DNA of 64,000 nt from an uncultured Clostridia bacterium (lineage in GTDB: Bacteria > Bacillota > Clostridia > Oscillospirales > Acutalibacteraceae): the NCBI GenBank assembly GCA_947369085.1, contig CANBJR010000010.1, positions 1 to 64,000 of the forward strand. The letters run 5' to 3'. Each line of letters begins with the position of its first letter. Positions within the stretch are counted from its first letter, which is position 1. Under the pieces are notes generated by a model. The model did not search any database. It was not told the DNA's origin and saw only the letters and a list, made by a program, of their open reading frames with translations. Positions 7,973 through 42,042 of the stretch are shown in pieces. The position numbers and the translations under genes are program-made.

Positions 7973-7974
7973 AG

Positions 7975-10729: not shown

Positions 10730-10794
10730 GATCTATGTCCTCCTATGAAATGAAATAGTTTTGTTTTTGTATTGTTGCAGTGCTATCCATGCAC

Positions 10795-11205: not shown

Positions 11206-11221
11206 CGGTTTATCCCTCCTT

Positions 11222-11247: not shown

Positions 11248-11260
11248 CCTGTGTGAAAGG

Positions 11261-12700: not shown

Positions 12701-12896
12701 TGCTCTCACCCCGCATTTCTTTTATCTCGATGCCTTGCACTGTTTCACCCGGCGTCAGCACAAGGATTTCGCAGAATTCCCCAAAGAGAAAGGTGAGCAG
12801 CCTTTTTGGCAGACTCCTGTGTTCGCTCTGCAAGACTTCCTGCTTCTGTCCGTTGCGGTCTGCAATGTTAATTTTTATCCTGTGTTTTAACTTCAT
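12693..12896 (-). CDS. Small phage protein of unknown function
   Basis: 67 aa, basic N-terminal half (MKLKHRIKINI). AAGGAGG lies 7 nt upstream of the ATG at 12896, so the 46 extra track residues are non-coding leader. Its last codons overlap the start of the helicase gene, so the two are coupled. No motif recognised. Confidence 0.65.
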   Translation of the reverse strand: MKLKHRIKINIADRNGQKQEVLQSEHRSLPKRLLTFLFGEFCEILVLTPGETVQGIEIKEMRGESND

Positions 12897-12954
12897 GGAT
12901 TTTTCCTCCTTTTTCTGAATTGCATTGTTGCGGAGGAGGGGTTTAATTCCTTCC

Positions 12955-12980
12955 TCACTTACTACCGAAAAATTCAACCC
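12955..12980 (-). repeat. Leader repeat copy B (26 bp)
   Basis: Second copy of the element at 11222-11247, upstream of the small gene starting at 12896. It forms one side of an inverted repeat: CGGAGGAGGGGTTTAATT to the left and AATTCAACCCTCCG to the right on the plus strand. It is therefore probably structured in RNA. Confidence 0.7.
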
Positions 12981-13037
12981 TCCGTAGAGGTGCGGTAGGG
13001 GAGGACTCCTACCGCTATAAAAACCGTCACTCATGGC

Positions 13038-17365: not shown

Positions 17366-17379
17366 AAGCTACGACCTCC

Positions 17380-19317: not shown

Positions 19318-19330
19318 TTAGCCCACCTCC

Positions 19331-20404: not shown

Positions 20405-21465
20405 TAGTCTAAACTCTCCTTTAAATACTCTATCATTGCTTTCCCCATCAGGCACGGCACTGCATTGCCTATCTGCTTTTGAACAGAACGTCTTGTTCCG
20501 CAGAATTTATATCCACGGGGGAAAGTTTGGATTGCAGCGGCCTCGGGTGCCCTTAATCGCCGATTATCCCAGTGGAAAGGACCAACCCATGGACCGGGCT
20601 GCGCAGTAATCGTCCACGAAGGCATATCCGGTGACAGTTTCAGAAGGAAACTCCAAAACCGCTTATCTGCAACAAACTTCGGATTCGGATATCCTGCCCA
20701 TGCCGTCAACGCTTTGTAATTCTGCCCAGGGGGAACCTCGCACAAGTCTTCATAGTATGTGCCACCCTTCGTGACTTCGTATTCCTCAAAATATTCATCA
20801 CCATCGAATCCTTCAAGGAATGGACCAACCGCAGCGTAAGGCTGAAGACCTGTTATTGCACAAGTCTCAGGATCGCCGTGTGTTTTAACAGGTTCGCTAT
20901 GTTTAAATTCTCCTTTTGTTCCGATAATGAACAGCCTTTTTCGTTTCTGGGGAACTCCGTAATCCAAAGCATTCGCCCTGACAATTTTATACTTGTACCC
21001 ACTCTCTTCAATTATCTCTATAAACTTATCTATAATAGATTTGTTTGTGGGATGCATCAGGCTCTCAACATTTTCAAAAACAAATCCATCTGGTTGAATA
21101 TCTGTTACCACTCTCAAATATTCGTCTACAAGAGTGGCTCTCGGATCATTAATGCCTTTTCTTGTATTATTTCCGACCCAGTAACCCGCTTTTGAAAACG
21201 GCTGACATGGCGCACCGCCAATTACAATAAATTTCCTATGCTCATGTTTGCTGACAATATCTGAAAAAACAGAACTTTCAATCTGGTGCAAATCTCCTTC
21301 TAGTATTTCAGTGTTCCCAAATAAGTCTTCATTTGCTTTAAGAGTTTGAATACAGTCAGCATCAAAATCTGTGCTGGATACTACAGGAACACCAGCCATA
21401 ATACTTGCTATATCCAATCCGCCCGCACCAGAAAACAGACTGACTGCAATTATATCGTTGTTCAT
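20404..21465 (-). CDS. DNA (cytosine-5) methyltransferase M1 of LlaJI-like system
   Basis: 353 aa. Motif I VSLFSGAGGLDIAS, motif IV GGAPCQPFSK (catalytic Cys ~85), motif VI FENVESL, motif VIII PQKRKRLF, motif X QIGNAVPCLMG. Start chosen at 21465 (MNNDIIAVS), 6 nt after AGGAG; the longer track start lacks support. In the lactococcal LlaJI system M1 also controls operon transcription (known for that system); whether that holds here is open. Its target-recognition region differs from M2's, so the two probably methylate different strands or sites. Confidence 0.93.
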   Translation of the reverse strand: MNNDIIAVSLFSGAGGLDIASIMAGVPVVSSTDFDADCIQTLKANEDLFGNTEILEGDLHQIESSVFSDIVSKHEHRKFIVIGGAPCQPFSKAGYWVGNNTRKGINDPRATLVDEYLRVVTDIQPDGFVFENVESLMHPTNKSIIDKFIEIIEESGYKYKIVRANALDYGVPQKRKRLFIIGTKGEFKHSEPVKTHGDPETCAITGLQPYAAVGPFLEGFDGDEYFEEYEVTKGGTYYEDLCEVPPGQNYKALTAWAGYPNPKFVADKRFWSFLLKLSPDMPSWTITAQPGPWVGPFHWDNRRLRAPEAAAIQTFPRGYKFCGTRRSVQKQIGNAVPCLMGKAMIEYLKESLD

Positions 21466-21488
21466 ACGCATCTCCTGTTGCTTAAAGT

Positions 21489-21677
21489 TTACATGGCACT
21501 TTTGCCACTTTTTATCCATTCATCGACTTCGGATAGTTTGAACTTCCATTTTCGCCCGATTTTATGCGCAGGTATGTCTGTCTTCTTTATCCAATTCCTA
21601 ACGGTATCTTTGTTTACCCCTAAGTATTCAGCGACCTCTTCCAGGCTTACCCAAGGTTCAGTATTTTGAAGCTGCAT
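21489..21677 (-). CDS. Excisionase-type HTH protein leading the restriction operon
   Basis: 62 aa MerR/excisionase-like DNA-binding domain: SLEEVAEYLGVNKDTVRNWI followed by the wing IPAHKIGRKWKF and a LSEVDEWI helix. AAAGGAGGT is immediately upstream and a consensus promoter lies 36 bp before the start codon. First gene of the operon, 24 nt before M1. Small HTH proteins in this position are often present beside m5C restriction systems and may regulate them; it is not a canonical C protein. Confidence 0.85.
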   Translation of the reverse strand: MQLQNTEPWVSLEEVAEYLGVNKDTVRNWIKKTDIPAHKIGRKWKFKLSEVDEWIKSGKSAM

Positions 21678-23513: not shown

Positions 23514-25156
23514 TCACGCAACTGTTTCATCGCATATTTTTATGGTGTTTATTATAGAGTTAATTTCTTTTGCTGTCAAAAGGGAGGTAATATTAAATTT
23601 TACTTCGTCTAAATCATTACACTTCCACTTGTAATGACTATTTATTTTATCAATTACCGTCTTCTCAATAGTCTGTTTGCACATATATTCTGTAATTATG
23701 CTCGGGGTATATACAGAACCATCTTTATAACCGTTCAGTTTTTCAAAAATAAGTCCAAGTACAGAAGCATCTATAATTTCACGATTTTTCGTTCTTTTTT
23801 CATCATCTGTTCCTTGAGCAGAGAAATCATAACTATTCAGAAAATTTATTATATATTCTAATAAGGGAATTTCTTTTGGCGCATGTTTCCCAAGAGACGA
23901 TTTGCTCGCACGATTTACTTTTTCATTCCTGATTTCTTTAATATTTATATCTTCACGTTCAATATCTTGTTGCTCAAACAAAGAACTGTTCAGGTACGGA
24001 ATTTCAGTAAATTGATTATAAAATCGGTCGTCATTGCGCTCTTTCTTACCGAGGACATTAAAGAAAAGCTTCTGTAAATCACTAAAGCTTTTAATTTTTG
24101 TATTATCAAAATTTTGTATGCATAATCGTTACTGTTAAAGGATATAAGCTGTCCCTCAAACAGCTTAATAAGTAAAAGACGATTTATCCAAATAATGATA
24201 AGTTCAAAAGTTTTCTCTGTTGCTTCTTTTTTTGAATGGTATATATCATTATAGCCTTTGTCATCCACATAAATGTTGTAAACCTGATTAGTCAATGAAT
24301 TCTTAATAGATGAATCAATTTGAATGACCGTCTTGTTTTTATTGTTTTCATCCTTTGCCTCTTTCAGTCCCATAATATAAAGCAGTTCATGGTAGAAATT
24401 ATTGTTGAGCACATTTGTCTTTGCCTCAACATTGTATCCCTCTTTCAGCAAAAACTCCTTGGACAGAATTTTATATAAATACCTATCTTCTTTTGATTTA
24501 AATTTTCTAATATCAAAAAATGTATATACAAGCTTATTTGAGACATTTATTTTATCAAAATAATCTTTGATATCTTCATAGAATTTCGAAGTATTTTTAG
24601 CATAAGTAAGCTTATTATTTTCATATTTCCAAAAGAGTTTTTCAAGATAGCCGTCACATATCTTATCCAATTCCGTTGCATCTATGATCATCCATGTTAA
24701 TGCATCTGTAATTATTAAATTTTTCAACTCGGAGTTAGTATTTCTCGTAATCTTCTTGCTATCAGTATTTCTGGTTTCTTTTAAGAAGTAATAAGTTAAT
24801 TCCCATAAAGCTTTTTTATTAATGTTATCTTTGCATACCATTTCCTGAATATTGGTAGTTTTCTTAACCTCTATAAGCACATTATTAACTCCGTAAACCC
24901 GAATAGATGAGTCAACACTTTTATTAGTATTAATATCATATATACTTCTATCAGGATAAAAATTATCCTGCAGAAAATCATTAATTTCTCTTTTGAAGTA
25001 TTCCTCGTTTTCGTTATTAGTAATACCTAAATCTATTTTCTTTTTATATACTTTTAATGATGTTGAAAAATCATCAAAAGTTGTTTTTGGAATTTTGACT
25101 CTATAATATCTCTCGTCAAATTTCTCCAATGTTTTGTCTATTAACTGCAGTGCCAT
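23514..25156 (-). pseudogene. Type IIG restriction-modification enzyme, frameshifted and truncated
   Basis: The start MALQLIDKTLEKFDERYY has GGAGG upstream. A nuclease-like core ends in NVLIEVKK (E-x-K). The 400-aa ORF then loses frame near 24115, where an AAAAA to AAAA loss would restore YKNFDNTKIKSFSDLQKLFF and join it to the second ORF (23514-23981). That part continues through DASVLGLIFEKLNGYKDGS and then stops at KICDETVA, exactly where relatives have the SAM motif I (D-P-A-V-G-S-G-H). The methylase catalytic motif NPPY and target-recognition domain are missing. Length with one base restored is an exact codon multiple (548). Family remembered as DUF7149/Eco57I-like; certainly non-functional as a methylase. 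Confidence 0.82.
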
Positions 25157-25268
25157 ATAATGTCCTCCGTGTAGCCTTATAAAGAAAATCAATATATACT
25201 GATTTCGAATAAACTATACTATAGAATATTTCAAATTATTTTCTTCGTTTAATAAAAGATTGGCGAGT

Positions 25269-27086
25269 TTACAACTTGTTTGCTAATTCACCCATAAATC
25301 CCAATTGTAAATTATCAGGCATACCTACAACTGATACTCTATCCAATAAAACATTTCGGAATTCGCATGAAGTTTCCGGCAGTAAGGTGCACGCATGACA
25401 TGCGGCATAATTCAAAGAAGCAAAGCCTTGATGCATTGAAGTTGAGCACAAAGGATCGCCACTGCACCAACGCGCCTCTTTAAGCATATTTTTTAACACC
25501 TTGTCCAACAATTCGGTATCTTCAGCAACACTGATTAAACCTCCAAGACTTCCATCGCTGTCGGAAGATGACAAATATATCAGCACGCCGTTCATCACTG
25601 TATCATTTGTACCATCAGTAAAAGTTGAATATATTTTTTCTCGCATAGAAGCTGCGCTATAACCACATTCATTTGCAAGCTGTCTTATAAATAAATGGGC
25701 AAATGTATGCAGCAAAATATATTGAGGTGAAAATTTAGGAGATTTAAAAAAGCTATTTTGATGTGATATTTTTAATTCATCATATCTACTACCTATTCTG
25801 CGTATCCATCTGTCAATTACGGATTTTTTAAACTTAATAAATATTCCCTCGCCGTTAAGTTCAGTGGCCGGAAGCCACTCTTTCTTTTCTAAAGATAAAG
25901 GAGCTATGCGTTCAGAATTTTTACCGTCATAAGGATATAGCCTTGTAAAACCACTTAAGGTCATCGTAACAACCAGTCTGTCAACTACAGACTCTATATC
26001 AAAGTATTCTTTGAAATCATTCGGAATATTGACAAAATGTGATGAATATCTATCCTCTGAAATCTTATCCTTACATAAGATTTTATATTCATCTGCATAC
26101 ACATCAGCCTCAATACGAATCATATTTGATTTTCTGCGATTTTTGAGAGTTTCATATGCATCTAACAAATTATCAAGTCCGAGATACGGACATTTAGGTA
26201 AAATACAGTTTTTGATATATTCTACTTGTTTTTCATTTGTCATATATGAGAGACGTTCATACTCTTTTTCAATTTGGTGTATGGCTCTTTGACTCCAAGG
26301 TGGTATTAACAAAGCACTTTGCGTAACAGGAAAATATATACCGGATGACGCTCTAAGTCTTGTTGTCGGCACAGCCGTACATTCTTGCGTAAAATCTCCT
26401 AAATGCGGATGCTTCCCACAACAAGGTCGTCCGTTCTCACCTGCGAAAGCATTTTTATTAAACACTCCAACCATACTGCGTTTCTCTCCACATTCTGCGC
26501 ATTCCAAAATAAGACTTTCAGTGTCGCTTCGTCCGCCTATATTATACATCTTTACTCGTGGTACAGATTTTCCGCTTTTACAAGGCTTTCCACTATGCAC
26601 CCACCATGAGTATGGAAAATCCTCCATATGTCCATTTTCGCATATAAGTACAAAGCGAGAAGCTACAAGCTGTCCATTGCAGGGTTTTCCGTTTTTTCCA
26701 TATTGATTACATTTTTGCTTATTAGACTGATTAGTAAGTTCACGATAATCAATAATGCTTTTGCATACCGGACAATATAACTTTTGTGGAAAAACATAAG
26801 ATAAAATATCTTGATTAGAAAGCAAATATGACGCTCCTCCGGAGACCTTAGGAGAAAGAAAATATTTAGCGCCGGTAAATGATTGTAAATTTTCATTAGT
26901 AAGCTGACGGTTTTCCCAACCATCATCTTTATCCCAATCATCAACGCCGCCGATAACTGCAGTTTCTCTTACAAAATCAACTATACTGCCTATACCATAT
27001 GTGGATATTATCTGACTTTTTCTTATCTCGCCGATATGATGTTTTATTTTATTTGCTTTTTTCATTCTTTTAAAAGGATTTGACAC
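25269..27086 (-). CDS. drmB: DUF1998 protein, DrmB-like
   Basis: 605 aa, GTG start with GGGAG 7 nt upstream. N-terminus IGEIRKSQIISTYGIGSIVDF is typical of DrmB of DISARM systems. It has several Cys pairs (LYCPVC, CAECGEKR, CHAC) likely to bind zinc, and a C-terminal DUF1998 region (YILLHTFAHLFIRQLANECGY, SSDSDGSLGGL). DrmB pairs with the helicase DrmA encoded just upstream (12-nt gap). In DISARM the DrmA-DrmB complex binds and threads invading DNA. Intact. Confidence 0.87.
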   Translation of the reverse strand: MSNPFKRMKKANKIKHHIGEIRKSQIISTYGIGSIVDFVRETAVIGGVDDWDKDDGWENRQLTNENLQSFTGAKYFLSPKVSGGASYLLSNQDILSYVFPQKLYCPVCKSIIDYRELTNQSNKQKCNQYGKNGKPCNGQLVASRFVLICENGHMEDFPYSWWVHSGKPCKSGKSVPRVKMYNIGGRSDTESLILECAECGEKRSMVGVFNKNAFAGENGRPCCGKHPHLGDFTQECTAVPTTRLRASSGIYFPVTQSALLIPPWSQRAIHQIEKEYERLSYMTNEKQVEYIKNCILPKCPYLGLDNLLDAYETLKNRRKSNMIRIEADVYADEYKILCKDKISEDRYSSHFVNIPNDFKEYFDIESVVDRLVVTMTLSGFTRLYPYDGKNSERIAPLSLEKKEWLPATELNGEGIFIKFKKSVIDRWIRRIGSRYDELKISHQNSFFKSPKFSPQYILLHTFAHLFIRQLANECGYSAASMREKIYSTFTDGTNDTVMNGVLIYLSSSDSDGSLGGLISVAEDTELLDKVLKNMLKEARWCSGDPLCSTSMHQGFASLNYAACHACTLLPETSCEFRNVLLDRVSVVGMPDNLQLGFMGELANKL

Positions 27087-27098
27087 AATAACACTCCC

Positions 27099-30000
27099 TT
27101 ATTGCTCAATATATACATTAGAACTTTCTTCTACATTCCGCAAAGAATTAAGGACAGGAGGAAAATCAAAATCTGAAGTTTCTTCCGCTGAATTTAATAA
27201 GGAAATATTTCCGCTTTGCTTGCTATCATAGCATAAATTAGGGTAAATCTTTGTAATAGAATCCCATTCTGAAATTATTTCATTCAATATACATTCGGCT
27301 GTATCTTTTGCTTTTGGATGTAAGTTATATACTCTTTCAAGTATAAAATTCTTTATTTGTAACACTTGGGCATCATTTCTTTGAAAATATGCAGGAGAAT
27401 CATTGCCTGAAAGATATGGAACAGTTAGACGCACTAATGCAATAAACACATAGTGCAGTGCTTTTTCCATTGCTCTTGCAGAAAAAGGCGTTACACTTGT
27501 GGCTTCAACATACTGATAAAATGATTTATGATAAAATCCAAACTGCTCATAATGTGACTTATCCCTTGAGCGCATAGGATTATACATAGCTATAACAACA
27601 CCGGGCTTGCTTCGTCCTACACGGCTTGTTGCCTGAATATACTCAGCATTCGTTTTTGGTTGGTTATAGACCGTCATAACACCTAATCTATTTATATCTA
27701 TTCCTACTGACAGCATATTTGATGCTAATACATACGAATAACAACCGTTTTTATTATAAGCAAAATCCAAATGCTCAAGTGTATCCTTTATCTCTTTGGC
27801 GCTCTTTCTTCCGGTAAGCTCTTCGCTATAAAGATACGGAATATCCCTTTCGGACAAACCTAATAAAGTGCATATTTCTTGGAATTTTCTTTCGATTAAT
27901 GTTTTAATATGCGTATATATACGATCCTGCAAAATATTTGCGGAAGCACCTAAATCACGAATAGCATTAAAATATCCAATAACCGTATAATACTGATCAA
28001 TTACCTCATCTGTTTTTCCTTGTTTTATAAACAAGGCTTTAACAAAAGTAAGTATTGCGTAAATACGCACGAGCAAATCTGCAACGCTTCCTCCGCTTTC
28101 ACAAACTCCAATATATGTTCTCGCCGGTCGTTCATCTTTGCTTGCTATACGAGAAAAGAATGAATCATCAAAAGAGATACCGCTTGGCGGAAATTGCTGC
28201 ATCTTTTTATTATATAGGTTTCTTATTTGCTCATCAGCGTTTTTAACAGTTGCAGTAGAAGCTATAATTTTAGGTGAAATTCCGTCTTTTCTGCAAAGAT
28301 AATCGACTGCAATTTCATATAATCCTTCAGGTGAACCAAGAGATCCTGATATAAGATGAAGTTCATCTTGAATTATCAAAGATGGAGGAACTTTTTCAAC
28401 ACCAAATAAACGCTTAGTATCCTCTACCCACGCCAGACGTGCAAATTTATCAATAGTACTCAACAATAATGTCGGACATTGCTTGTAAATGTCATCATCT
28501 ACAATATAAATAGGAAGCTTTTCATGAAATTCGCAATTAGGGTTATCTTTACAACAAATTGTCATACCGTCAGGACCTATGCTATAGCTGGTAATATCAA
28601 TTTTTTCACCGCACCAAGGACAAGTTGTTATTTGAACGGGGTTTCCCTCGTATATTTTTTCATCCCTATTATTTTTTAGTTTTTGCAAAACTTCATTTGC
28701 TTTTTCTAAGTTATTTGGTGTAGTTGCTGATCCTATCCATAAACCAATGCTTATTTCGCCACCCGGAATATCGTAAATTCTTCGTAAGTATTCACACGCA
28801 CAAATCATTGCAGCCGTACGCTCAAATTGCTGTATAGTCAAAAGTCTGAGTGTATACCGCATTATTACGGTTACACCATCATCAACATATCTTTTCGAAA
28901 TTCTGCGATATAAAATAGTAAATGCCGCAACACCAAGATATGCTTCTGTTTTTCCGCCACCAGTAGGAAACCATAGTAAGTCAACATCATCGTGAAATTC
29001 ACTTTTTGGATCAACTATATCCGGTACTATTTGCAATATGTAGGCAAGCTGAAACGGATACCAATTAACTTGTTCGGGCTTTTGTTTTTTGGTATTGACA
29101 CGCTGCAACAACATAGCTTCGTTCATAAACAAAAATGCTTTCCAAGCATTGTCATTGTTTTTTAAAACATCAACTCCTGTTCTGAGCCGTTTTATACATA
29201 TCTCAATACGATTTATCAATTCAACTGCTGCTTTGTAAAACTGACTAATTGATTTAATCTCTTTTCTCTTACATTCTTTCCATTCTTCATACTCATCAAT
29301 AAAAGCATTTAAATCATTGCAGGCCGTCTTACGGTCTGCATTTTTCCAAGTATCCAATGACAGTATTCTTGCATTTTTTATTTTACCGGGCATCATTTGC
29401 AAAACCTGTTCCGTCGGAATAAAATCACTTGATATTTTAAATACTCCTCTTTTTGTTTCATCATATGAAACTGAACATCCGTGTCCGTATGCATAGTTTT
29501 TTACATTCTGATACAGTAAAGATTTTATCTGAGATTCTATATCAGATTTAGGATACAGATTTTGATATACAGGCAAAAACGAGCTATCAGATTCAACAGA
29601 TAGTTGACATTGAAACAGTGCATATTCATTTCTTATGTGCAGTTTATTCTTTTCAGTTGCAGTATTTACTACTGAAACAGTCAGCAGCTTACTGCCATCT
29701 GACATAATTTTCCTGACCGTTAAGTTTATTTCAGCATTGAAATCGTCATAATAAGCTATACTTTCACCTCCAAGTTCTGAAGGAATATTGAAAGTCAAAT
29801 TGATACTTTTCGGTATGCGTGTGTATTTATGGTCAGTTATCTCCTTAATGTTTTTTTCAGACAATTCACCCAAAGTTAGTTGTCCTTTTTCTTCAATAGT
29901 TCCGGAGCTTGGTATTTTCCGTTTGCTTTCTGAATGCTTATAAATACCAAAATCAAATGTTACTAACAACTTTTTTAAGGATGGAGGAACCATAACCGAG

Positions 30001-30308
30001 ATTCCCATAGACGAAGGTCTGTAATTATTTGCTTCGGTAATTGTATCATCAAGACTGTCAAGTGTATTCTCAAGCAATATATTATCTTCGGCATTAAGCT
30101 CATTTTCCTCAGAATCAAATAATGCTATTTGGTGGTTAACGCTATTATTTTGCGATGCCTTTCTCGGATACAATATTCCTGTAACATATGCAGAAAGCGG
30201 CTCAACATTTTCCAAAATCTCATCTTCTGAAGAAACCCCAAATAAATCCTTTGTTAAACATTCTTTTATTTCATCAATTGCTTTGTAGTATTCGTCAAAA
30301 CCACTCAT
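27099..30308 (-). CDS. drmA: DISARM-type SF2 helicase, DrmA-like
   Basis: 1069 aa. N-terminal ~400 residues of the type found in DrmA, then Walker A FPTGGGKTEAY (~447-457), Cys pairs CPWCGEK...CC, motif II IIQDELHLISG (~648), STATVKNA, and C-terminal motifs SVGIDINRLG and IQATSRVGR. The motif II form xDELH and the YNQPKTNAEYIQATSRVGR block are characteristic of DrmA/DUF1998-associated helicases. It starts 1 nt after the UvrD-like gene's stop. Intact and full length, unlike the genes around it. Confidence 0.88.
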   Translation of the reverse strand: MSGFDEYYKAIDEIKECLTKDLFGVSSEDEILENVEPLSAYVTGILYPRKASQNNSVNHQIALFDSEENELNAEDNILLENTLDSLDDTITEANNYRPSSMGISVMVPPSLKKLLVTFDFGIYKHSESKRKIPSSGTIEEKGQLTLGELSEKNIKEITDHKYTRIPKSINLTFNIPSELGGESIAYYDDFNAEINLTVRKIMSDGSKLLTVSVVNTATEKNKLHIRNEYALFQCQLSVESDSSFLPVYQNLYPKSDIESQIKSLLYQNVKNYAYGHGCSVSYDETKRGVFKISSDFIPTEQVLQMMPGKIKNARILSLDTWKNADRKTACNDLNAFIDEYEEWKECKRKEIKSISQFYKAAVELINRIEICIKRLRTGVDVLKNNDNAWKAFLFMNEAMLLQRVNTKKQKPEQVNWYPFQLAYILQIVPDIVDPKSEFHDDVDLLWFPTGGGKTEAYLGVAAFTILYRRISKRYVDDGVTVIMRYTLRLLTIQQFERTAAMICACEYLRRIYDIPGGEISIGLWIGSATTPNNLEKANEVLQKLKNNRDEKIYEGNPVQITTCPWCGEKIDITSYSIGPDGMTICCKDNPNCEFHEKLPIYIVDDDIYKQCPTLLLSTIDKFARLAWVEDTKRLFGVEKVPPSLIIQDELHLISGSLGSPEGLYEIAVDYLCRKDGISPKIIASTATVKNADEQIRNLYNKKMQQFPPSGISFDDSFFSRIASKDERPARTYIGVCESGGSVADLLVRIYAILTFVKALFIKQGKTDEVIDQYYTVIGYFNAIRDLGASANILQDRIYTHIKTLIERKFQEICTLLGLSERDIPYLYSEELTGRKSAKEIKDTLEHLDFAYNKNGCYSYVLASNMLSVGIDINRLGVMTVYNQPKTNAEYIQATSRVGRSKPGVVIAMYNPMRSRDKSHYEQFGFYHKSFYQYVEATSVTPFSARAMEKALHYVFIALVRLTVPYLSGNDSPAYFQRNDAQVLQIKNFILERVYNLHPKAKDTAECILNEIISEWDSITKIYPNLCYDSKQSGNISLLNSAEETSDFDFPPVLNSLRNVEESSNVYIEQ

Positions 30309-30309
30309 A

Positions 30310-32657
30310 TTATATCTCCGTCCATTCTGTTCTGCCGAAACCGCTTATTTCAACGCCTAACCAAAAACGGTTATTTCGAAAAATTTGCGGAATGTTTTCA
30401 TAATTTTTATTCGAAACATATGTTATTACATTTGTAATATATAAATTACTGATTTTATCCGGAAGTCTGGTAGATATAAATCGTCTGCCGCCGAATTTTT
30501 CCCTAAGATTATCGGAATATTCTCTTGTCATTTCACCAATTACAATATCATTGTGTATGATATAATATCTGTCTTCGCTGTTAAGCTTTAAATAAATCTC
30601 ATCTTCAGCTTTAACATTATTTGCAATGTATTCTTGTCTTGTTACAGCTTCAATCAGATTTCCGCTAACAAAAGAACTGTAATCTATATCATTGGGAAGA
30701 CCTGTCGCAAAGCCGGCACAAAAGGGGTTTTTATAAGGTACTTTTATCGTTCTAATCCATCGGTTGCAATTACTTTTTAAAAAATACCAATCATATTTTT
30801 TGCCTTTTTTCAGAATTTCAAGCTCTTTTTTCGGACGTGTTTCAGCCACATAAAGAATTCTTTCTTCCTCAGTATCTGATTCATCCTTTTTATAATCCGG
30901 ATTATAGTCATATCCAAGCAGATATACCTTGTCAAATTCACGACCTTTAGCCTTATGTATAGTGGACACAATAAGATGGTTATTATTTTCATTTCGAATA
31001 GTTTCCGGGAAATCAATTTTTTGGCATAAAATTTCAGCCAGCTTTTCACGGTCAATATAATCATAGGCATAATCGGATGTAATTTCCGTTAAAAATTCTG
31101 TCAAGCTATTATAAAAGCCGTCAGCTTGCTTTTCGGTAAAATCACATCTGACACAAAGTCTTTTTGTGAATTCATCCTTCGACATAATTTTATCAGCATA
31201 GTCCCAGAGCACATCAGCTATACATCTATTTAGAGACATATCTTGCCCGATGTTTCGCACAAGGGTATGAGGTATTTTTTTACTATGTAAAAGTGTACTC
31301 ATATACTCTGCTTCATCATTATTTCTACATAGAATAGCAGTAGTATCTTCTTCCGGAGTATTAGTTTTGCTGAAATTTTCAGCCGATACTGTTGTCGGAA
31401 GAGTCAAAAGCATTTTTCTAAAAACAGCAGTAATATTACTAGGATCAAAATTAAGCAAAGAAGAACGCAATTCAGTTGTTTGTTCATTTAAAAATTGTGA
31501 CTGCCGCTTATTTCCTGTTAATTCATACTTTTTTGTATTGTCAGGCAGTATTTCACCTAAGCATTTATAAAATTCAGTTGAATTAATGTTTTGCTCACCT
31601 GTGCAATCGTAATCGTAAATCGCCTGACATTTATCTCCGAGAAGCAAATACCCGCAACATAAAGCATTAAGAATATTCAACATCATTAAGGCACGATCGT
31701 TAACCAAATCCTGAAGTTCATCTACTATGCAGTAAACAAAGTCTTCAAAATCTTCAGAATTTATCTTCTCATTAAAAAGGCATATTCTTTGATTATAATC
31801 AAGCTTAGAAAGCTCGTCCAAGCTAACACCAATAGTAATTAAGTAGTTCGTCGCTATAGAATCAAATGTGCAGATATTAACCTGATTTGCTTCATAAGGT
31901 ATTATGCCAGCCTTTACACCCTCTTGAATACGCTTTTTAATTTCTGCAACAGTGCTCGTGTGTAACAAAGGACAAGGATTGCATCACAATTTTCCGGTGA
32001 AGTATTTTTCAAAATATAAAGCAATCGTTGAATAGCTGTGTATGTTTTTCCTGTTCCCAGTCCGGCATTGACAAGAATATGACTGTTTAAATCTGTTTCA
32101 ATAATTGCATCTATTGCCTGAATTTCGTCAATTTCAACATACTCTGCACGATCAGTAACTATATCCTCAATTCTGATTACTGCTTCATCAGGTACAAATT
32201 CTTCATTACTGTTGGATTCAAAATCCGGCTCAGCAAACACATCCGTGTTTCCTTTAATTCCAAGCCACTCAAGTTCAACGACACCGTCATCATCTTCTTC
32301 AGTTACCGTTATCTCACTGCGATTAATTTTTTTGGGGGTACAAATAAAACAGTCTTTTGCTTCACATCTGCACTCATAAAAATATTCACCGTTTTTAAAT
32401 ACTTTTCCAAATGATTTTTCGCCTTTTGGGGCATGTATACATGATGAAGACTCTTGTAATTCCTTTTCTTGAACAGGGCTCAATCGAACGCTTGATAAAG
32501 TTCCGCTATATTTATGTTTTATTACTTCCAAAGCATTTTGACCGGAAACATGAGCTACAAATTCAGGATCACGTTGTAAATCGTCAAATCCATCAACAAA
32601 AGACCGGGGATTTCGAATATATATGTTACTAACAATATTTATATTTGATTTGTACAT
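30310..32657 (-). pseudogene. UvrD/Rep-like helicase split by a frameshift
   Basis: The first ORF (31914-32657) holds an N-terminal region with CRCEAKDCFIC and Walker A LVNAGLGTGKTY, ending ILVLCYTRA. The second ORF (30310-31968) continues TVAEIKKRI and carries motif II VDELQDL, QAIYDYD, VSTIHKAKGREFDKVYL and RILYVAETRPKKE. Restoring one base near 31952 (CGAGCACTG to CGAAGCACTG) would give CYTRSTVAEIKKRI, the normal UvrD sequence, and an exact codon multiple (783). SF1 3'-5' helicase. GAGGTGATA precedes its ATG at 32657; it lies 12 nt after the Hsp70 gene. Probably inactive unless the deletion is a sequence error. Confidence 0.85.
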
Positions 32658-32668
32658 ACTATCACCTC

Positions 32669-34126
32669 TTATTTGCCTATTGCTGATAAATCATAATAAA
32701 AGGTAAGGTTATGAATCTTAATTTTACTGTCTTTAAGCTCATCAGCTACAGTATTGTTATGTATTTTTATATTTGCTATTTGGTCCTTATCAATTTCCGC
32801 TGTAACCTCAAGCCGCTCCTGCAAAAAACCTTTTGTAGGAATATTCATCTTATCATAGACAATTCTTCCATCACCGTTAGTTATTATGAAGTGGGCATCA
32901 GGTGAATCCTTTGTAAGAGAAAATGCAAATCTATTGCTTTTAGAGCCGACTCCATCTTTATTTTTATGTAAAATCGGAAAAATTGTATTATCAGACATTA
33001 CAATTCCAACATCATCACTTAGCTTGAATTCCCCACCTATAAACGGCATAAGTGCAGCTCCCTTTGCTGAAACAAACTGCACTTTGTCCGGAATAATGAT
33101 TTTATCTCTACCAAAAAGATTGGTAATAGCATCGGCAAAAGGACGAAGATTACTGCTTCCGCCTGCAATAATAACGGCATCAATGCTTGATTTTGTAAGT
33201 TCAGCTCGTTCCATAGCACTGTTTATAGTTTTAAGCACACGATTACGGATAATAGGTTTAACAATATCTTCAAACATATCGCTTGATATTGGTATGGTCT
33301 TTGTTCCGTAGTCGCCATAATTTCTTAATGTAAGCGGATATTCATCACCGTCTTCAGAAATCTGAATTTTCGCTTCTTCACAGCGTGACACTATTTTATC
33401 TCACTGTGATGCAGGCATTTCGCTAAACGATAAACGCTTATCCGAATCAGCCGTTTTTAGGTTAATGACAGAATGAATCCTTTGAGCTAATTCTGTATCA
33501 ATATCATCACCGCCGATTTTCTCGCCAAATACAGAAACCTCACGCAGTTTAGAACCCTCAGATTCAAGAATGCTGATGTCAAGTGTTCCGCCGCCCCAAT
33601 CAATAACCATAATTCGAGAAAGTCCCTTTACATCTTTACAGGTAGCCAAATACGCTGCAGTTGATTCAGAAACAAGATATTTTACTTTTAATCCTGCTCT
33701 TTCTGCCGCAAGTCTTAAATCAAAGCGAGCTTTCGCAGTAAAGTCGACCGGAAATGAAAGTGATACCTCTTCGATTTGAATGCCATGCTTTTGCTTAATA
33801 TACTGCTTCAAGCACTTAAAATATTGGGTAACAATTTGACTTGGTGTAAATTCAATTCCGTTTAAAACTACTTTTTTATTCGTACCAAGAAGTGATTTTA
33901 AGGATGAGACAAGCTGATGCTTTTCAGAATATTCATCACGCTTGCTTTTAACCTTATTCCCAAACTCTACTCGATTATCCGGTAAAACAGCCAATAATGA
34001 GACAAAGGGGAATTCGCCGTCTTCACCGAGAATAGTCATCTTTTCACCGTATGAATTCTTATCTATACGAACCACAGATGTATTAGTTGTTCCAAAATCT
34101 ATGCCTATCGAACTTCCTACACTCAT
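32669..34126 (-). pseudogene. Hsp70/DnaK-family protein interrupted by an in-frame TGA
   Basis: 485 codons from the ATG at 34126 (GGAGG upstream). ATP-binding motifs GIDFGTTNTSVVRI (phosphate 1), VIDWGGGTLDIS (phosphate 2) and VIIAGGSSNLRPF (adenosine) all lie in one frame. A TGA at 33403-33401 divides it as MPASQ-stop-DKIVSRCEEAKIQ. A TGG to TGA change (Trp) is the simplest explanation. The substrate-binding part is short compared with DnaK, as in specialised Hsp70s. The second part could restart at a GTG (33391), but that would not bind ATP properly. Not the housekeeping dnaK, since no grpE/dnaJ lie nearby. Confidence 0.87.
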
Positions 34127-34143
34127 AATCGAACCTCCATAAA

Positions 34144-35285
34144 TCATTCAAAATTAAACCCAAATCTTTTTAATATTTTAAATATCCGCTGCAAACTTGC
34201 ATAATTAGCTTGAAAATTATCTTCATTAAAGGTTGTATCGCTTGAGCAATATTCATCATATTCAGCCTTAAGTGTATCTGAAACATTTTTAACAAGAGTT
34301 TCAAGTTCTTGGCTTTTACTGAGAGTATCCATTTGAAAAGCTGTTTTAAGGCGTTCATTTAGATTAGCAATTTCTGACGATTGTTTACAGATTTTTTCTT
34401 CAAGTGCTGCTTTTTCAACCGCTAAATCCGAACAGCGTTGTTTACAGTCCTCCAATTCCTGATTCAAGCGTAAAATTTCCGCTTCTTTTGCGTCAATATC
34501 ATTTTTGCCGTTTTTAGTGTTGAAATAATACTGTTCGTATTTGTCAGATTATTGACCTGCTCTACAAGCGTCTGACTTATATTGCGTAACTGCTCAACCA
34601 CCAACTGATGCTGTATGGCGGTCTTTTTCGGCAAACTGTTATCCGGCAATGATTTCTCCTCTAAGTCCCGTTTCTCGGTTATATTTCCATTTTCAGTTTT
34701 ATCAACCGACGAATCTTGACCATTTGAGTTTGATTCATTACTTGTATCTTTATTTTCACTCTTTTCAACATCTGCCAAAAAACTTAGTATCATATCCTTA
34801 TCAGCTTTATTTTTTAATGTGTCCAACAAGGAAATAAAATTATCTAATTGGTCTTTATCTCTAATATATTTTTGAAAATACTCTACCATTTTCGTAGAAA
34901 ATCCATTATCAAGCTTACCATTAAAAATCACGCTGGCAGATAACTCGGCTGTTATACTTTTATTGATATTATATCTCAGAAAAGCCTCACACAAAACTAA
35001 ACCACGGTTAAACACTGTCACGTTATTCTTCTTATTAAAGCACTTATTTTTCTTAAACGCATTAAGGAAACATTCTGCTTCATCATCAGTTATTCTATAT
35101 TGTTTGAAGAATTCTTCACATACAGAATGTGGAAATTTAACAAACCAATTAACAATAGTATTGTAATCTTTATTTTCAGAAAACAATTCTATAAGTATAA
35201 GTGCAGCTTCATTTTTTGCTCTTTTATTTTTTGAATTTTTAGCTTTCGGTAAAAGTTCATTAAGTTTTTCAGAATAAGTTTCCAT
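34144..35285 (-). pseudogene. Coiled-coil partner of the Hsp70, frameshifted
   Basis: The first ORF (34464-35285) is helical with a Ser/Asn/Glu-rich linker, then VEQLRNISQTLVEQVNNL. Near 34548 the frame is lost; the other frame gives DKYEQYYFNTKNGKND and runs into the 107-aa ORF (34144-34467) with a long coiled coil (LEDCKQRCSDLAVEKAALEE). One added base makes an exact 381-codon gene. No enzymatic motif. The coiled coil directly upstream of the Hsp70 is reminiscent of GrpE-like exchange factors or adaptors, but I see no GrpE signature, so this is inference. Confidence 0.75.
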
Positions 35286-36235: not shown

Positions 36236-39112
36236 TCAACAATCAAACAAAGTATTTTTTACATCTAAAATATCCGTAAGCCTACCTGCCACGCTTTCGC
36301 TTATAAATCTCATTGCGTTTTCTTCTGAATAGTTATAGCTTAAAAAATTGATATTACCATACCAGACAATTCGCCTGTCAATAACTGCAAAGTTTTGGAA
36401 TACATTATCATATATAATGAATTCGCAGTTGCTGATTTCCTCTGAACTCAATATATCACTGACTATATCGTTGTTCTCAGTTTTTGTAACAATCTTAATA
36501 TCTGTATTTTTATCAGCTGTGTTCATTATTTTCTTCGCTACAGATTTGTTCAATCTTGGTGCTGAAATTAAAATTTCCTTGACTGCTCCGCATAAATCTT
36601 CCGAAAACTTTCCTGAGTATGTCTGGGTATCAAAAATAATATTCTCTGTTTCATTATCTGAAGATTTCACTATATACCCCAATTCTGCATATCCTTTTAC
36701 TCTTTTATGATACATTCTTTCGAGCATAGGCATAAAAATATCTGCATAATCGTAAACGCAAACCTCCTGTTTACCGTCATAATTTCGGTGCAATCTGCCT
36801 GCATACTGCGCAAGAGTACCTTTCCACGCAATCGGCATCGCAAGGAAAAGCGTATCAAGTCTTGGTTCATCAAAGCCTTCTCCTACATATTTACCTGTTG
36901 CAACAATAACAAGATTCTCGGACTTTGGGACAGCTTTAATTTGCTCTAATTTCAGCTTCTTATCTTTAGCTTTATCCTTGCCGCTTAACACAAATACATT
37001 ATCACATTTATCTTTAATAAATCCTGCAAGCAAATCAGCGTGTTCTTTGCGCTCAGTTAAAATTATCGGATTTCTTTTATTTAATACTGCCTTTAGAACA
37101 TCATTTACAATCATATTATTTCGCATTTCATCCGTACAGACTTTTGCGCAGACAGTCTGATAATCAATGTCGTTTTCAGCAACTCTGAATTCGGTAAATC
37201 TCGGAATCATATAATGCGAAAAAGCTCTTTTTTCAGCCTGTATTCTTGCATCTACCTTGTATCTTACCGGACCGCATTGCATAAAAATAATCGGATGATG
37301 TCCGTCCTGTCTGACTGGTGTTGCGGTAAGTCCGTAAACATATTTTGCATTGACTGTTCTCAGGATTTTTTCAAAACTGAATGCTGAAACATGGTGGCAC
37401 TCGTCTACTATCACCATACCGTAATCCTTGACAAGTTCCTTAACTTCATTGTCTTTTATCAGAGATTGCATAATTGCAATGTCGACTTTTCCGTTAAGAG
37501 TATTCTTTCCCGAACCGAGCAACCCTATATGAGAAATTTTCTTTTTCCTTCCTCTTGTTGTTGGCTGTTCCGGAAGTTTATCTTCAAAAGTCAAAAATTG
37601 AGATAATGACTTTTCCCACTGTTCAAGCAAAGCGGCAGAATGAACAAGAATTAATGTGTTCACCGTTCTCCGAGCTATGATATATGAGGATACAACTGTT
37701 TTACCGAATGCAGTTGTAGCAGACAAAACGCCGTTTTCATATTTCAGCATTTCATCAACTGCTGTCTGCTGTTCTGCATATAATTCACCTTTGAACTTTA
37801 CTTTTACCGGCGAGCCAATATTTCTTTCATCTTCAATTATATATTCTGCCCCTGCGTTATCAAGCAAAGTCAAAAGACTCTCTTCGCAGCCTCTCGGAAT
37901 ACAAAGGAATTTATCTGTTTCTTCGGTTGTATCAATTATTCTGGGCTTGTTGTATATCGGCAGTCGCATCGCCTGTGATTTATAAAAGTCAGGATTTTTA
38001 AACGCACCAAGTCTTTTTATTTTGTTGAGCGCATATTGCGAGATGCCTTTCTTTTTAATAAAAAGCATATTAGCCTTTACAATTTCAACTGTTCTCGAAA
38101 AATCCATAGGTGTAACATTTTGTTCCGGCTTTTTCTCCCACGGCTTTTCATCTTCAGATACTAATTCACCCAAATCGCCGTTATCGCATAACTGCTTTGT
38201 ATATTTCTCAATTTCATTTGCAGTGATTTTATTAATATTATACAGATACTCCCATTGGTCGGGATAGAATATAAAATTGTCATCAACAAATTCACTGTTT
38301 TTATTTTTTCTTGCCCTACCCTGTAACGGAAGAGCAATCAGATTTCCAAATCCGCCTTTTGGCATAGTGTCCTGATTTGGAAACATTCTGTCATAAGAAT
38401 CAAGTTTAATTTCGTGTCGGCTTTCCATAGCTTTTGTGAGCAATCCGCTTCCGAAATTTCTTGCAGTAGATGCCGGTACTGCTTCTTCAAAAAAGAACCA
38501 CATATGCGCACCGTTTCCCGAGCGTGAACGCTCAACGCTTACAGGGATATTATATTCTCTGCAAATTTTACGAACAGCAGTTACATCATTCTGCCAGCTT
38601 TCCTCGTCAAAATCGATTGCAAGAAATTTTGTTGTTTCGTCAGAAAGCATAGGATATATTCCCACTACATCACGACAGAATTCATCATCGCCTTTCAGGT
38701 GATTGTAAATAACCCTGTCATTTATTTCAATAAAACTGCGGTTTGGACATTTTGAGCAGGTATATTTCTTCTTATCACATACAAAATTCACCCACTCATT
38801 ACTGCAAGCAGGCACATATCCGCTTTTACCGGTTTTTGTATTATAATATCGCTTTGCGTATACATCCGCTCTACCACAGAATAGAGATTTAAACAGTTCG
38901 ATTTTCTGTTGCGGAGTGCTGTATTTATTAACTTGTGGTTTATCTGCGGTATTGATTTCAACAGCTCTATTCTTAAACCATTCTTCAGTGCTGCAAAAAC
39001 AAAAATTGCCGCACTCATCCTTGCAGAGTACGGCAGTTTCGTTAGTTATGATGTTTTTAATTTTGTTTACATATGTGTATTTTTCTCCCTTGAGTATTGC
39101 AAAAGAATTCAT
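36236..39112 (-). CDS. TOTE-type primase-SF2 helicase-PLD-like fusion protein
   Basis: 958 aa. Residues ~60-330 are an archaeo-eukaryotic primase of TOTE conflict systems: LFCGRADVYAKRYY, CSKCPNRSF, FLAIDFDEESW, VERSRSGNGAHMWFFFEE, MFPNQDTMPKGGFGNLIALP. An SF2 helicase follows: Walker A TTAFGKT (~469), DECHH (~572), GLTATP, YAGRLHR. The C-terminus NFAVIDRRIVWYG (~907) resembles a phospholipase-D strand lacking its usual His. GAGG precedes the ATG. Stands alone, 221 bp from the Hsp70 cassette. Presumed anti-invader system; intact. Confidence 0.85.
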   Translation of the reverse strand: MNSFAILKGEKYTYVNKIKNIITNETAVLCKDECGNFCFCSTEEWFKNRAVEINTADKPQVNKYSTPQQKIELFKSLFCGRADVYAKRYYNTKTGKSGYVPACSNEWVNFVCDKKKYTCSKCPNRSFIEINDRVIYNHLKGDDEFCRDVVGIYPMLSDETTKFLAIDFDEESWQNDVTAVRKICREYNIPVSVERSRSGNGAHMWFFFEEAVPASTARNFGSGLLTKAMESRHEIKLDSYDRMFPNQDTMPKGGFGNLIALPLQGRARKNKNSEFVDDNFIFYPDQWEYLYNINKITANEIEKYTKQLCDNGDLGELVSEDEKPWEKKPEQNVTPMDFSRTVEIVKANMLFIKKKGISQYALNKIKRLGAFKNPDFYKSQAMRLPIYNKPRIIDTTEETDKFLCIPRGCEESLLTLLDNAGAEYIIEDERNIGSPVKVKFKGELYAEQQTAVDEMLKYENGVLSATTAFGKTVVSSYIIARRTVNTLILVHSAALLEQWEKSLSQFLTFEDKLPEQPTTRGRKKKISHIGLLGSGKNTLNGKVDIAIMQSLIKDNEVKELVKDYGMVIVDECHHVSAFSFEKILRTVNAKYVYGLTATPVRQDGHHPIIFMQCGPVRYKVDARIQAEKRAFSHYMIPRFTEFRVAENDIDYQTVCAKVCTDEMRNNMIVNDVLKAVLNKRNPIILTERKEHADLLAGFIKDKCDNVFVLSGKDKAKDKKLKLEQIKAVPKSENLVIVATGKYVGEGFDEPRLDTLFLAMPIAWKGTLAQYAGRLHRNYDGKQEVCVYDYADIFMPMLERMYHKRVKGYAELGYIVKSSDNETENIIFDTQTYSGKFSEDLCGAVKEILISAPRLNKSVAKKIMNTADKNTDIKIVTKTENNDIVSDILSSEEISNCEFIIYDNVFQNFAVIDRRIVWYGNINFLSYNYSEENAMRFISESVAGRLTDILDVKNTLFDC

Positions 39113-39596: not shown

Positions 39597-40163
39597 ATGA
39601 ACGAATATACAATAGTTGATGAACTGGCTGATAAACGCAGAGGATTAAAAATATCTCAGCGTGAGCTGGCTAAGCGATGCAATATGCCTCAATCTACAAT
39701 CGCAAGAATAGAAACGCATCAGATTTCACCTCAGCTTGAAACTATATCCGTCATTGCCGAAAAGCTCAACTGTAATATTCAGCTTGAAGATAAGCTGAAA
39801 AACAAATGGGACGGCTGTAAGATTTCGGTTTACTGGAAAGATGAACTGACTGCTGTTGTGAATATCAAAAACAACGAAGTATTCATCAATAAGTTCACCG
39901 ACAATCCGATGAAGCAATTTTTCCTTGCTTTTGACAAAATTGATATTGCAAAGCTCGGCGAGCTGTTGGAAACACGCTGTTGGGAGCGTGGTCGTGCCGA
40001 TATAAAGGATTTACTTAATAAAATAGGGCTCGATGAGTATGATCCTATTGAAATTGTTAAAAGAACCTTTGGCGTAAGCTACAATGACTCTATCTGGTTT
40101 AAATTCGGCGACAACAATATCACTTGGAAAAAGCTTTGCCCAAAAGGAGAAAAATATGTTTGA
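39597..40163 (+). CDS. XRE-family HTH antitoxin-like regulator with C-terminal extension
   Basis: 188 aa. HTH at ~14-60 (ISQRELAKRCNMPQSTIARIE, SPQLETISVIAEKL). The following ~120 residues contain YDPIEIVKRTFGVSYNDSIWFKF, a segment seen in proteins paired with short HipA-like kinases. GAGGTGATT lies before the ATG. It overlaps the kinase gene by 8 nt. Likely represses its own promoter through the palindrome and neutralises the kinase, as HipB does; the C-terminal extension could match the HipS-like subdomain split off in HipBST systems (inference). Confidence 0.82.
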   Translation: MNEYTIVDELADKRRGLKISQRELAKRCNMPQSTIARIETHQISPQLETISVIAEKLNCNIQLEDKLKNKWDGCKISVYWKDELTAVVNIKNNEVFINKFTDNPMKQFFLAFDKIDIAKLGELLETRCWERGRADIKDLLNKIGLDEYDPIEIVKRTFGVSYNDSIWFKFGDNNITWKKLCPKGEKYV

Positions 40164-40911
40164 CATAACATTAAGCGACGACCTGACAGTAAACATTGAC
40201 GGAACAAGTGAAGGCACGCAAACGAAATTCTATGACAAGGGATACTGGTATAAAACAGATACTTTTGAAGAAGGCGTTGTGGAATACCTTGTTTCAAAAC
40301 TTCTCACATTCAGTACTCTGCCGAAGAAAAGCTATGTTGTTTATGAATACGGAAAGATAAACGGCAAAAGCGGGTGCAGAAGCAAGGATTTCCTTAAACC
40401 GGGTTATGAGTTAATCACATTTGAGCGTATTCATCAAAGAATTACCGGTACAAAATTATCTGCTAAAAAGTTCGAGTTTGAAACAATGGAAAGTTATATT
40501 GAATATACAGTTGACTTTTTCAGAAAATACCTTGATTTGGATATAAAGAAATATCTGAAAAATATCTTTACGCTTGATTTTATAACTCTAAACGAGGACA
40601 GACATTTTAACAATCTTGCCGTGATTTACGACACGAAGAACAATAAATATCTTACGGCACCGATTTTTGACAACGGCAAGTCGCTTCTTAACGGAAACAG
40701 AAGCTACAGACCTGCATTCTCAATTGACGAAAATATCAAAAAAGTTATTGCTCTACCATTCTCGGGCAGTCACAAAAAGATGTTTGATTACTTTGGAAAA
40801 GGCTTTTCAATTGATATTGATTCTGCGCTTGAATGGCTGAATATCGAACCGCAATCACTGTATCGGGATGTGCTTATCTATCAATTATCGGTAAATAAAA
40901 ATTTGGAGTAA
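40156..40911 (+). CDS. Short HipA-like Ser/Thr kinase (toxin candidate)
   Basis: 251 aa from the ATG at 40156 with AAGGAG upstream. Kinase catalytic motif LNEDRHFNNLAVI (~150), metal-binding APIFDNGKSLL (DNG) and a possible ATP-lysine region DKGYWYKTD near the N-terminus. It is much shorter than HipA and lacks the separate N-terminal subdomain, like HipT or CtkA-type kinases. Family members phosphorylate aminoacyl-tRNA synthetases or host proteins and halt growth (known); the target here is unknown. Confidence 0.82.
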   Translation: MFDITLSDDLTVNIDGTSEGTQTKFYDKGYWYKTDTFEEGVVEYLVSKLLTFSTLPKKSYVVYEYGKINGKSGCRSKDFLKPGYELITFERIHQRITGTKLSAKKFEFETMESYIEYTVDFFRKYLDLDIKKYLKNIFTLDFITLNEDRHFNNLAVIYDTKNNKYLTAPIFDNGKSLLNGNRSYRPAFSIDENIKKVIALPFSGSHKKMFDYFGKGFSIDIDSALEWLNIEPQSLYRDVLIYQLSVNKNLE

Positions 40912-40914: not shown

Positions 40915-42042
40915 GTGAAGAGGAAAATTTTTGAGTTTATAAAACAGGAAGCGATATTAATTGTTGCCTGTGTGCTTGCGGTGATTTCAATGTTCTTTGT
41001 AACACCGGACAAGGGGTATCTTGAGTATATAGATTTTAGGACGCTGGGGATATTGTTCTCGTTGATGGCATTGATGGCAGGCTTTCAGAGTATGGGTGTT
41101 TTTGAAGAAATCTCACGAAAACTGTTAAATAAGGTACAAAATATTCGCCAGCTTGTGGTAATGCTGACTTTACTTTGTTTCTTTTTCAGTATGGTAATTA
41201 CCAATGATGTGGCGCTCATAACCTTTGTCCCCTTTACCTTTGTGCTGTTTGATATGCTTGGAGAAAAGTCAGAGGAAAAGTGGCTTATTCCAGTAGTGAT
41301 TTTGCAGACCATTGCGGCCAATCTGGGAAGTATGCTGACACCAATCGGTAATCCACAGAATTTGTATCTGTACGGAAAATCGGGTATGGCTTTTGAAAAA
41401 TTTATTTTATTGATGTTGCCTTATACAGTCTTGTCACTTGCAATGTTGCTTGTTAGTAGTTTTGCCATAGGAAGCTTTGGGAACAAAAGAATTACCGTAA
41501 GTCTGACCACAAAAAGCAAAGAAAAGAACACCTGCAAAGTGATTATGTATGTAGTACTGTTTTGCATTTGTATTCTTGCAGTATTGCGTATTCTCAGCGT
41601 TAGTATTGCGTTTGCCGTTACACTTTGTGCAATTATGATCTTTGACAGAAAAGTATTGAAAAAAGTTGACTATTCACTCCTGCTCACATTTGTCGGGTTC
41701 TTTATATTCATTGGGAATATGGGCAGACTCCCAATGTTTTCATCTCTGTTACAGAAATATATCTCAGGCAATGAGGTGATTACTGCGGTGCTTACCTCTC
41801 AGGTTGTAAGCAATGTTCCGGCGGCACTGCTTTTGTCAAATTTCACCGACAACTTACCGGCATTGATTGTCGGCACTAATATAGGCGGCTTAGGTACATT
41901 AATCGCATCTATGGCAAGTTTGATTTCATACAAATTCATAGCACAAAAGAAAAATATATCCAAAGGGAAGTATCTGATATTCTTTACTGTTGGTAATATC
42001 ATTTTTCTTGCGGCATTAATGTTGTTGTATGTTATAATATAA
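40915..42042 (+). CDS. Ion-transporter superfamily (SLC13/ArsB-like) membrane permease
   Basis: 375 aa, GTG start with TTTGGAG upstream, 3 nt after the kinase stop. About ten hydrophobic segments, with the conserved SMVITNDVALITFVPF and NLGSMLTPIGNPQNLYLY loops and VVSNVPAALLLSNF near the C-terminus. These N-D and GNPQN signatures mark the ArsB/NhaD/CitMHS ion-transporter superfamily. Substrate (anion, citrate or arsenite) cannot be told. Tight coupling to a HipA-like kinase is unusual. Confidence 0.85.
   Translation: MKRKIFEFIKQEAILIVACVLAVISMFFVTPDKGYLEYIDFRTLGILFSLMALMAGFQSMGVFEEISRKLLNKVQNIRQLVVMLTLLCFFFSMVITNDVALITFVPFTFVLFDMLGEKSEEKWLIPVVILQTIAANLGSMLTPIGNPQNLYLYGKSGMAFEKFILLMLPYTVLSLAMLLVSSFAIGSFGNKRITVSLTTKSKEKNTCKVIMYVVLFCICILAVLRILSVSIAFAVTLCAIMIFDRKVLKKVDYSLLLTFVGFFIFIGNMGRLPMFSSLLQKYISGNEVITAVLTSQVVSNVPAALLLSNFTDNLPALIVGTNIGGLGTLIASMASLISYKFIAQKKNISKGKYLIFFTVGNIIFLAALMLLYVII

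Follow-up and report, generated by a model that had tools for sequence, protein, structure and literature searches.

A non-CRISPR CAPP-Helicase protein with a degenerate PLD domain in an uncultured Clostridia bacterium

Introduction

In excerpts of Zabrady et al. 2021 (PMC8211822), the primase-polymerase (Prim-Pol) domains of CAPP proteins are reported as proven primase-polymerases, CAPP-Helicase is given as the most prevalent CAPP architecture outside CRISPR loci, and the non-CRISPR members are said to reside typically on mobile and transposable elements. A related name, TOTE, stands for TPR, OB, TBP, Effector, according to the part of PMC12458937 that cites Aravind, Iyer and Burroughs 2022; a literature search for AEP combined with PLD and helicase, or for TOTE conflict, found nothing beyond this acronym source. 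The present work concerns a gene at positions 36236 to 39112 (minus strand) of a 64,000-nucleotide stretch of DNA from an uncultured Clostridia bacterium (GenBank assembly GCA_947369085.1, contig CANBJR010000010.1, positions 1 to 64,000), hereafter the window. It encodes in one chain a Prim-Pol domain of the AEP group, a superfamily 2 (SF2) helicase and a PLD-like domain.

Results

The window protein has the published CAPP-Helicase architecture in its non-CRISPR form, to which it was assigned by its domains and by the match of its Prim-Pol domain. The minus-strand open reading frame (ORF) running from 39112 to 36236 has 958 codons without internal stop, and the gene is single-copy in its genome (2.18 Mb, 98 contigs, 84.6% complete). 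Pfam detects AEP-TOTE (PF22548, E 1e-101) at residues 69-303, then ResIII/DEAD (5e-22, residues 443-601) and Helicase_C; ResIII, Helicase_C and XPB matches place the helicase domain at residues 431-815, after the Prim-Pol domain. The match to PLDc_2 is weak (E 9e-4, under the gathering cut-off). PADLOC and NCBIfam both call the first domain PrimPol, the NCBIfam model PrimPol_Msp scoring 95 bits, which is below its cut-off of 200. The gene and its domains are as follows.

36236..39112, minus strand: intact Prim-Pol / SF2 helicase / PLD-like fusion gene of the non-CRISPR CAPP-Helicase type (ORF, Pfam, model)
38963..39112, minus strand: small N-terminal beta-module, residues 1-50, specific to the clade lacking the HKD motif (model, profile)
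38204..38908, minus strand: AEP / Prim-Pol domain PF22548, residues 69-303 (Pfam, phmmer, fold)
36668..37822, minus strand: XPB-like SF2 helicase, residues 431-815, with Walker A K471, DECHH 570-574 and QYAGRLHR 769-776
36263..36640, minus strand: PLD-fold domain, residues 825-950 (Pfam, model)

Sequence comparison with solved structures placed XPB-II and the Prim-Pol domain of the Marinitoga CAPP nearest; the latter (7nqd/7nqf) was matched by the window's Prim-Pol domain in phmmer with E 4e-14. An AlphaFold2 model (mean pLDDT 84.9) was built on an alignment of 56 rows, in which relatives from many phyla stand at 43-55% identity and one (L001) at 93%. Foldseek aligned this model to structures of the CAPP Prim-Pol domain, the primer-initiation complex among them, with a TM score of 0.78-0.82 by target, and its helicase part resembles the XPB, UvsW and RadD helicases. 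Modelled alone, the C-terminal domain matched NucT, then TrmBL2, FAM83 and Nuc; since NucT and Nuc are PLD nucleases, the model indicates that the PLD fold is real. The domain order AEP, helicase, PLD-like in one intact protein of 958 residues, as initially annotated, was thus borne out by Pfam, model and alignment alike.

The initial annotation had also called the protein TOTE-type, and this label had to be given up. TBP (PF00352) was absent from the window's own genome and from those of 33 relatives (34 of 34), archaeal controls being positive, and no TPR or OB (cold-shock) component was found among the neighbours scanned with Pfam, including those beside the gene. Because TBP is missing from all these genomes, the locus is not a TOTE system, and that assignment was rejected; the word TOTE in the name of a domain does not turn such loci into TOTE systems. 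A role in CRISPR adaptation was likewise rejected for the window's genome, which is without Cas1 or a nearby array: neither Cas1 nor any other CRISPR adaptation gene was found in this 84.6%-complete genome, and no CRISPR-like array in positions 22900-43600. Cas1 was present in 14 of the 33 relatives' genomes.

The following residues were located by alignment.

38747..38806, minus strand: cluster of four cysteines (C103, C112, C119, C122), probable zinc site
38606..38614, minus strand: AEP motif I DxD, D167 and D169
38504..38506, minus strand: AEP motif II His, H203
38390..38392, minus strand: D241, invariant acid of the motif III region, its assignment as third acid tentative
36377..36400, minus strand: degenerate HKD motif, with F905 and N907 replacing H and K, and D912 kept

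The AEP and helicase motifs had been described as complete, and the alignment agrees. No variation was seen across relatives at D167, H203, D241, the helicase motifs or three of the four cysteines, and hardly any at D169 and the fourth cysteine; all are present in the window. When checked for loss of catalytic acids, the AEP domain was found to keep D167 and D169, the predicted metal-binding DxD needed for polymerase activity, and to have D241 at the third-acid position, an assignment that stays tentative because HMMER aligns D241 one column away from the CAPP Asp.

The situation is different in the PLD domain. Most relatives have HQKFAxxD...GSxN at this place, and instead of the catalytic motif HxK(x)4D(x)6GSxN the window has FxN(x)4D...GNIN: HQKFAVID...GSIN of relatives reads FQNFAVID...GNIN, with His replaced by F905 and Lys by N907, D912 being retained. 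The absence of the catalytic His, noticed initially, was therefore only part of the change, as the Lys is gone too; the His loss is real in this copy, but it is not peculiar to it and marks a whole clade. Because both H and K of the HKD motif are missing, the PLD is predicted to be nuclease-dead. The protein is, in sum, of a known kind, real, intact and well conserved, and judged from this motif a nuclease-dead variant.

Across the family, the core of AEP and helicase is combined with interchangeable C-termini, either an HKD-type PLD or DUF559/MTES_1575. DUF559 is a PD-(D/E)XK-type nuclease family. The DUF559/MTES_1575 branch is monophyletic (support 100), is found in Verrucomicrobia, Planctomycetes, Acidobacteria and Kiritimatiellae, and has neither leucine zipper nor beta-module. 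In the clade of 16 rows to which the window belongs (SH-aLRT 94), every PLD-bearing row lacks the HKD motif, and three more single losses occurred outside it (L011, L030, L064). Among beta-module relatives in the window's genus, erosion goes through HxS, HxT, NxT and then FxN, the last state being found in the window, its 93% relative and one congener fragment; a different lineage of the genus still has HxK. At one locus (L023, 7346-8152), a partial second copy of the C-terminal half (query 715-943) lies just upstream of the full gene.

In the window's clade, loss of HKD is coupled to an exchange at the N-terminus. Of the HKD rows whose N-terminus is complete, nearly all carry a leucine-zipper-like segment there (not so L058). 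The N-terminal module of the window protein was modelled as four beta strands, and a profile of it recognised all 16 rows of the HKD-less clade (E 2e-12 to 5e-39), every other row staying at 0.1 or above. As five clade members served as seeds of the profile, the scores within the clade are in part built in, which is not the case for the contrast with the other rows. An identification of the module as DUF1653 was dropped, as Pfam gave no match. Since the active site of single-HKD PLD nucleases lies at the interface of a dimer (PMC5714352), zipper and HKD plausibly make up one functional unit and were lost together; we infer this from one main event, with L064 as a possible second.

The whole protein is under purifying selection (ratio of nonsynonymous to synonymous changes, dN/dS, 0.17). 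Against the 93% relative, dN/dS was 0.085 for the helicase, 0.135 for the AEP domain and 0.306 for the PLD region. In comparison with the genome of the same relative, the proportion of synonymous differences (pS) was 0.19 for the Prim-Pol-helicase gene and 0.20 for the adjacent transporter gene, far below the values for PNPase (0.68) and a rubrerythrin-like gene (0.77), from which we conclude that gene and transporter moved recently as a block between lineages. The transporter gene (ArsB/NhaD-like ion transporter, 40915-42042, plus strand) moved with the Prim-Pol gene, and its position is a site of turnover within the genus.

The distribution is sporadic, with the gene present in 24 of 391 genomes of its class. 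Of 161 congeners, 4 have open full-length copies (G000, G589, G538, G544); G497 and G537 have near-complete copies with a stop, and eleven other congener genomes contain fragments only, some at contig edges, so that in the genus fragments outnumber intact copies. Scars of the gene were found beside the orthologous transporter in two congeners: G496 retains the first 12 codons, and G490 an internal stretch of 150 bp (L142 8640-8675; L143 2498-2659). The gene is thus horizontally transferred and rapidly lost. At least 578 confirmed relatives were counted in species genomes, mostly chromosomal, and 32 plasmid records contain the gene at 80% coverage or more. It was found in none of the phage records and in 10 of 2.9 million viral contigs, so that we rejected its being a phage gene.

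The initial annotation had further placed the gene, intact, beside a decaying Hsp70 cassette. The gene is indeed intact next to broken genes; the decay of the Hsp70-like gene amounts to a single in-frame TGA (33401-33403). A tie to the cassette was not supported. At the L001 locus the same gene and the same adjoining transporter are found, but a type I restriction-modification system with a recombinase takes the place of the cassette, and homology to L001 stops within the last codons of the gene, beyond which lies the window's UvrD/Hsp70/DrmA/DrmB cassette. The Hsp70 cassette was absent from the relatives' loci examined. DrmA occurs in 7 of the 391 class genomes and together with the Prim-Pol-helicase gene in the window's genome only. 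Because of this single co-occurrence and of the cassette-free L001 locus, we conclude that the gene is independent of the Hsp70/DISARM-like cassette; DISARM/Hsp70 membership was rejected, there being no linkage with drmA or drmB elsewhere. As to the cassette itself, an intact DrmA (942 bits against an NCBIfam cut-off of 950) and a DrmB-like protein with an MrfA Zn-binding domain are encoded at 25269-30308 (minus strand), beside which DrmC and DrmE were not found, leaving a partial DISARM-like core. At 30310-34147 (minus strand) lie the Hsp70-like protein and a UvrD-like helicase, the latter broken into two overlapping ORFs. This UvrD/Hsp70/coiled-coil/DrmAB association was not met among the loci examined.

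No conserved multi-gene operon was found across 80 loci. A same-strand neighbour within 60 bp was present upstream in 32 of 61 cases and downstream in 15 of 55. The upstream partners belong to interchangeable families (AlbA_2/HATPase_c_4, AAA_14-DUF4143, Fic, HipA, AbiEii, RhuM) of toxin-antitoxin, regulator or defence-linked type, and they often touch or overlap the start of the Prim-Pol-helicase gene (position -1 at L004, L013, L014, L016, L020, L048 and others). A conserved multi-gene defence operon was discarded, an interchangeable upstream partner being all that was found. The window locus has no such tightly spaced partner. Upstream of its gene lies a divergent pair encoding a helix-turn-helix (HTH) and a HipA_C-like protein (39597-40911, plus strand; weak PADLOC PDC-M03B/A matches), which is absent in L001 and present without the Prim-Pol gene in the congener G001.

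Elsewhere in the window, all on the minus strand, 15932-21519 holds a complete LlaJI-type restriction-modification system with two 5-methylcytosine methylases, a McrB-like GTPase with MTaX1 and RE_LlaJI (PF09563, 7e-49), and 23514-25192 a split DUF7149/DUF7814 protein, probably the remnant of a larger restriction-type enzyme. A phage- or element-like block at 764-13034, with a GC content of 0.47 against 0.34-0.43 elsewhere, encodes, to judge from translations, a ParB-methylase, HNH and VRR-NUC-like proteins, a primase-helicase, a DNA polymerase I-like protein and an SNF2-type helicase.

Discussion

The explanation that we favour, and to which we give an even chance, is that the gene encodes a stand-alone, horizontally traded, single-gene anti-invader protein of the CAPP-Helicase kind, of which the form in the window's lineage no longer cuts with its PLD. 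Its defence role, catalysis, dimerisation and order of steps are what we infer in the following scheme. The N-terminal module and the zinc cluster would help to select DNA, the XPB-like motor would grip and remodel it, the Prim-Pol domain would prime or extend on the exposed strand, and the nuclease in the C-terminal slot (PLD, or DUF559 in the other branch) would cut. In HKD-bearing members, the leucine zipper would pair two chains, each of them contributing half of the PLD site. The window's clade has the beta-module in place of the zipper and has lost H and K, and because of this the protein should act through its motor and DNA synthesis, the PLD domain at most binding DNA. It is possible, if rather doubtful, that the lineage gave up a dimer-dependent PLD nuclease, took on a beta-module, a possible reader of DNA or protein, in place of the zipper, and defends by motor and DNA synthesis with no cutting. 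The copying or trapping of invader DNA, suggested initially, is a guess.

An anti-invader protein is favoured by the conservation of AEP residues and helicase motifs over the 56-row alignment, and by a C-terminus that can be either of two nucleases, HKD-PLD or DUF559. The purifying selection, the clade-wide loss of HKD together with the N-terminal exchange, the recent transfer, the sporadic occurrence, the full-length copies on plasmids and the families of the upstream partners count in its favour as well, as do the proven activity of CAPP Prim-Pol domains and the dimeric active site of single-HKD PLD nucleases. Several points weigh against it. Transfer and loss would equally fit a costly repair or mobile-element gene. 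Downstream neighbours are mixed, mostly housekeeping genes, and form no consistent defence island, and the family loci share no methylase or other partner that could mark self. The support of 94 for the window's clade is below 95, and the clade represents one evolutionary event. No experimental work on a close homologue was found.

An accessory DNA-repair or replication-restart enzyme serving the cell, whose helicase opens damaged DNA, whose Prim-Pol reprimes or fills gaps and whose active nuclease incises, would account for a helicase closest to XPB-II (solved with the Bax1 nuclease), RadD and UvsW, for housekeeping genes that often adjoin, and for the fact that Prim-Pols act in repair in other bacteria. 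We nevertheless consider it unlikely, although deserving attention: a very patchy distribution, recent transfer and many fragments are not what one expects of a repair core gene, and the partner families are of toxin-antitoxin or regulator type. That the protein helps maintain or replicate mobile elements such as plasmids and islands, rather than defending against them, is to us decidedly unlikely. Near full-length copies do exist in the 32 plasmid records, recombinases lie close to some copies, and non-CRISPR CAPPs are typically found on mobile or transposable elements according to the excerpts of PMC8211822. The family is, however, mostly chromosomal and practically absent from phages; genes for replication, mobilisation or integration are not conserved as partners at its loci, and an element carrying an HKD or DUF559 nuclease would itself be harmed by it.

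Two further explanations bear on the window copy. It could be decaying and close to being lost, PLD erosion being the earliest sign, as the faster-evolving PLD region (dN/dS 0.31) and the many congeners with fragments only might suggest; this is improbable in view of the strong purifying selection on AEP and helicase and of the HKD-less state, which is old and common to a clade with intact cores. It is very improbable that the gene is a component of the adjoining DISARM-like/UvrD/Hsp70 cassette, where it would fill the role of DrmC, the PLD protein that is missing. The gene is adjacent, co-directional and 221 bp upstream of the cassette, and DISARM normally has a PLD protein, absent here; against this stand the L001 gene at the same transporter without cassette, with homology ending in the last codons, the occurrence of DrmA with the gene only in this genome among 391, and a window PLD that lacks its catalytic pair.

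Prim-Pol-helicase fusions are common outside CRISPR loci, and the family amounts to a natural experiment in which the C-terminal partner of the same conserved motor and Prim-Pol is an active PLD in some members, a dead PLD in others and a DUF559 nuclease in a third group. Comparing these three C-terminal states would reveal whether the DNA-synthesis part alone acts on invading DNA.

Among known systems, the likeness to TOTE is limited to the Pfam name AEP-TOTE of the AEP domain. DISARM uses a PLD protein, and DrmA and DrmB lie in the same window as the Prim-Pol-helicase gene, but elsewhere the latter is unlinked to them. The single-HKD PLD nucleases NucT and Nuc have a fold like that of the window's C-terminal domain, which differs in being without the catalytic H and K; the HKD-bearing relatives are their true counterparts. 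In the XPB-II helicase with its Bax1 nuclease, an XPB-like motor is likewise linked to a nuclease; that pair belongs to archaeal DNA repair, whereas the window's family has one chain, an added Prim-Pol, a PLD or DUF559 slot, and is a mobile bacterial gene. With CAPP_A type 3, "CAPP-Helicase" (example RHW43474; Zabrady et al. 2021, PMC8211822, in excerpt), and its non-CRISPR homologues the window protein shares the architecture, which also occurs outside CRISPR loci; it differs in coming from a genome in which no Cas1 was found, and by a PLD fold without H and K and a beta-module, both undescribed in those excerpts. Its Prim-Pol domain is like the solved domain of the Marinitoga CAPP in both sequence and fold.
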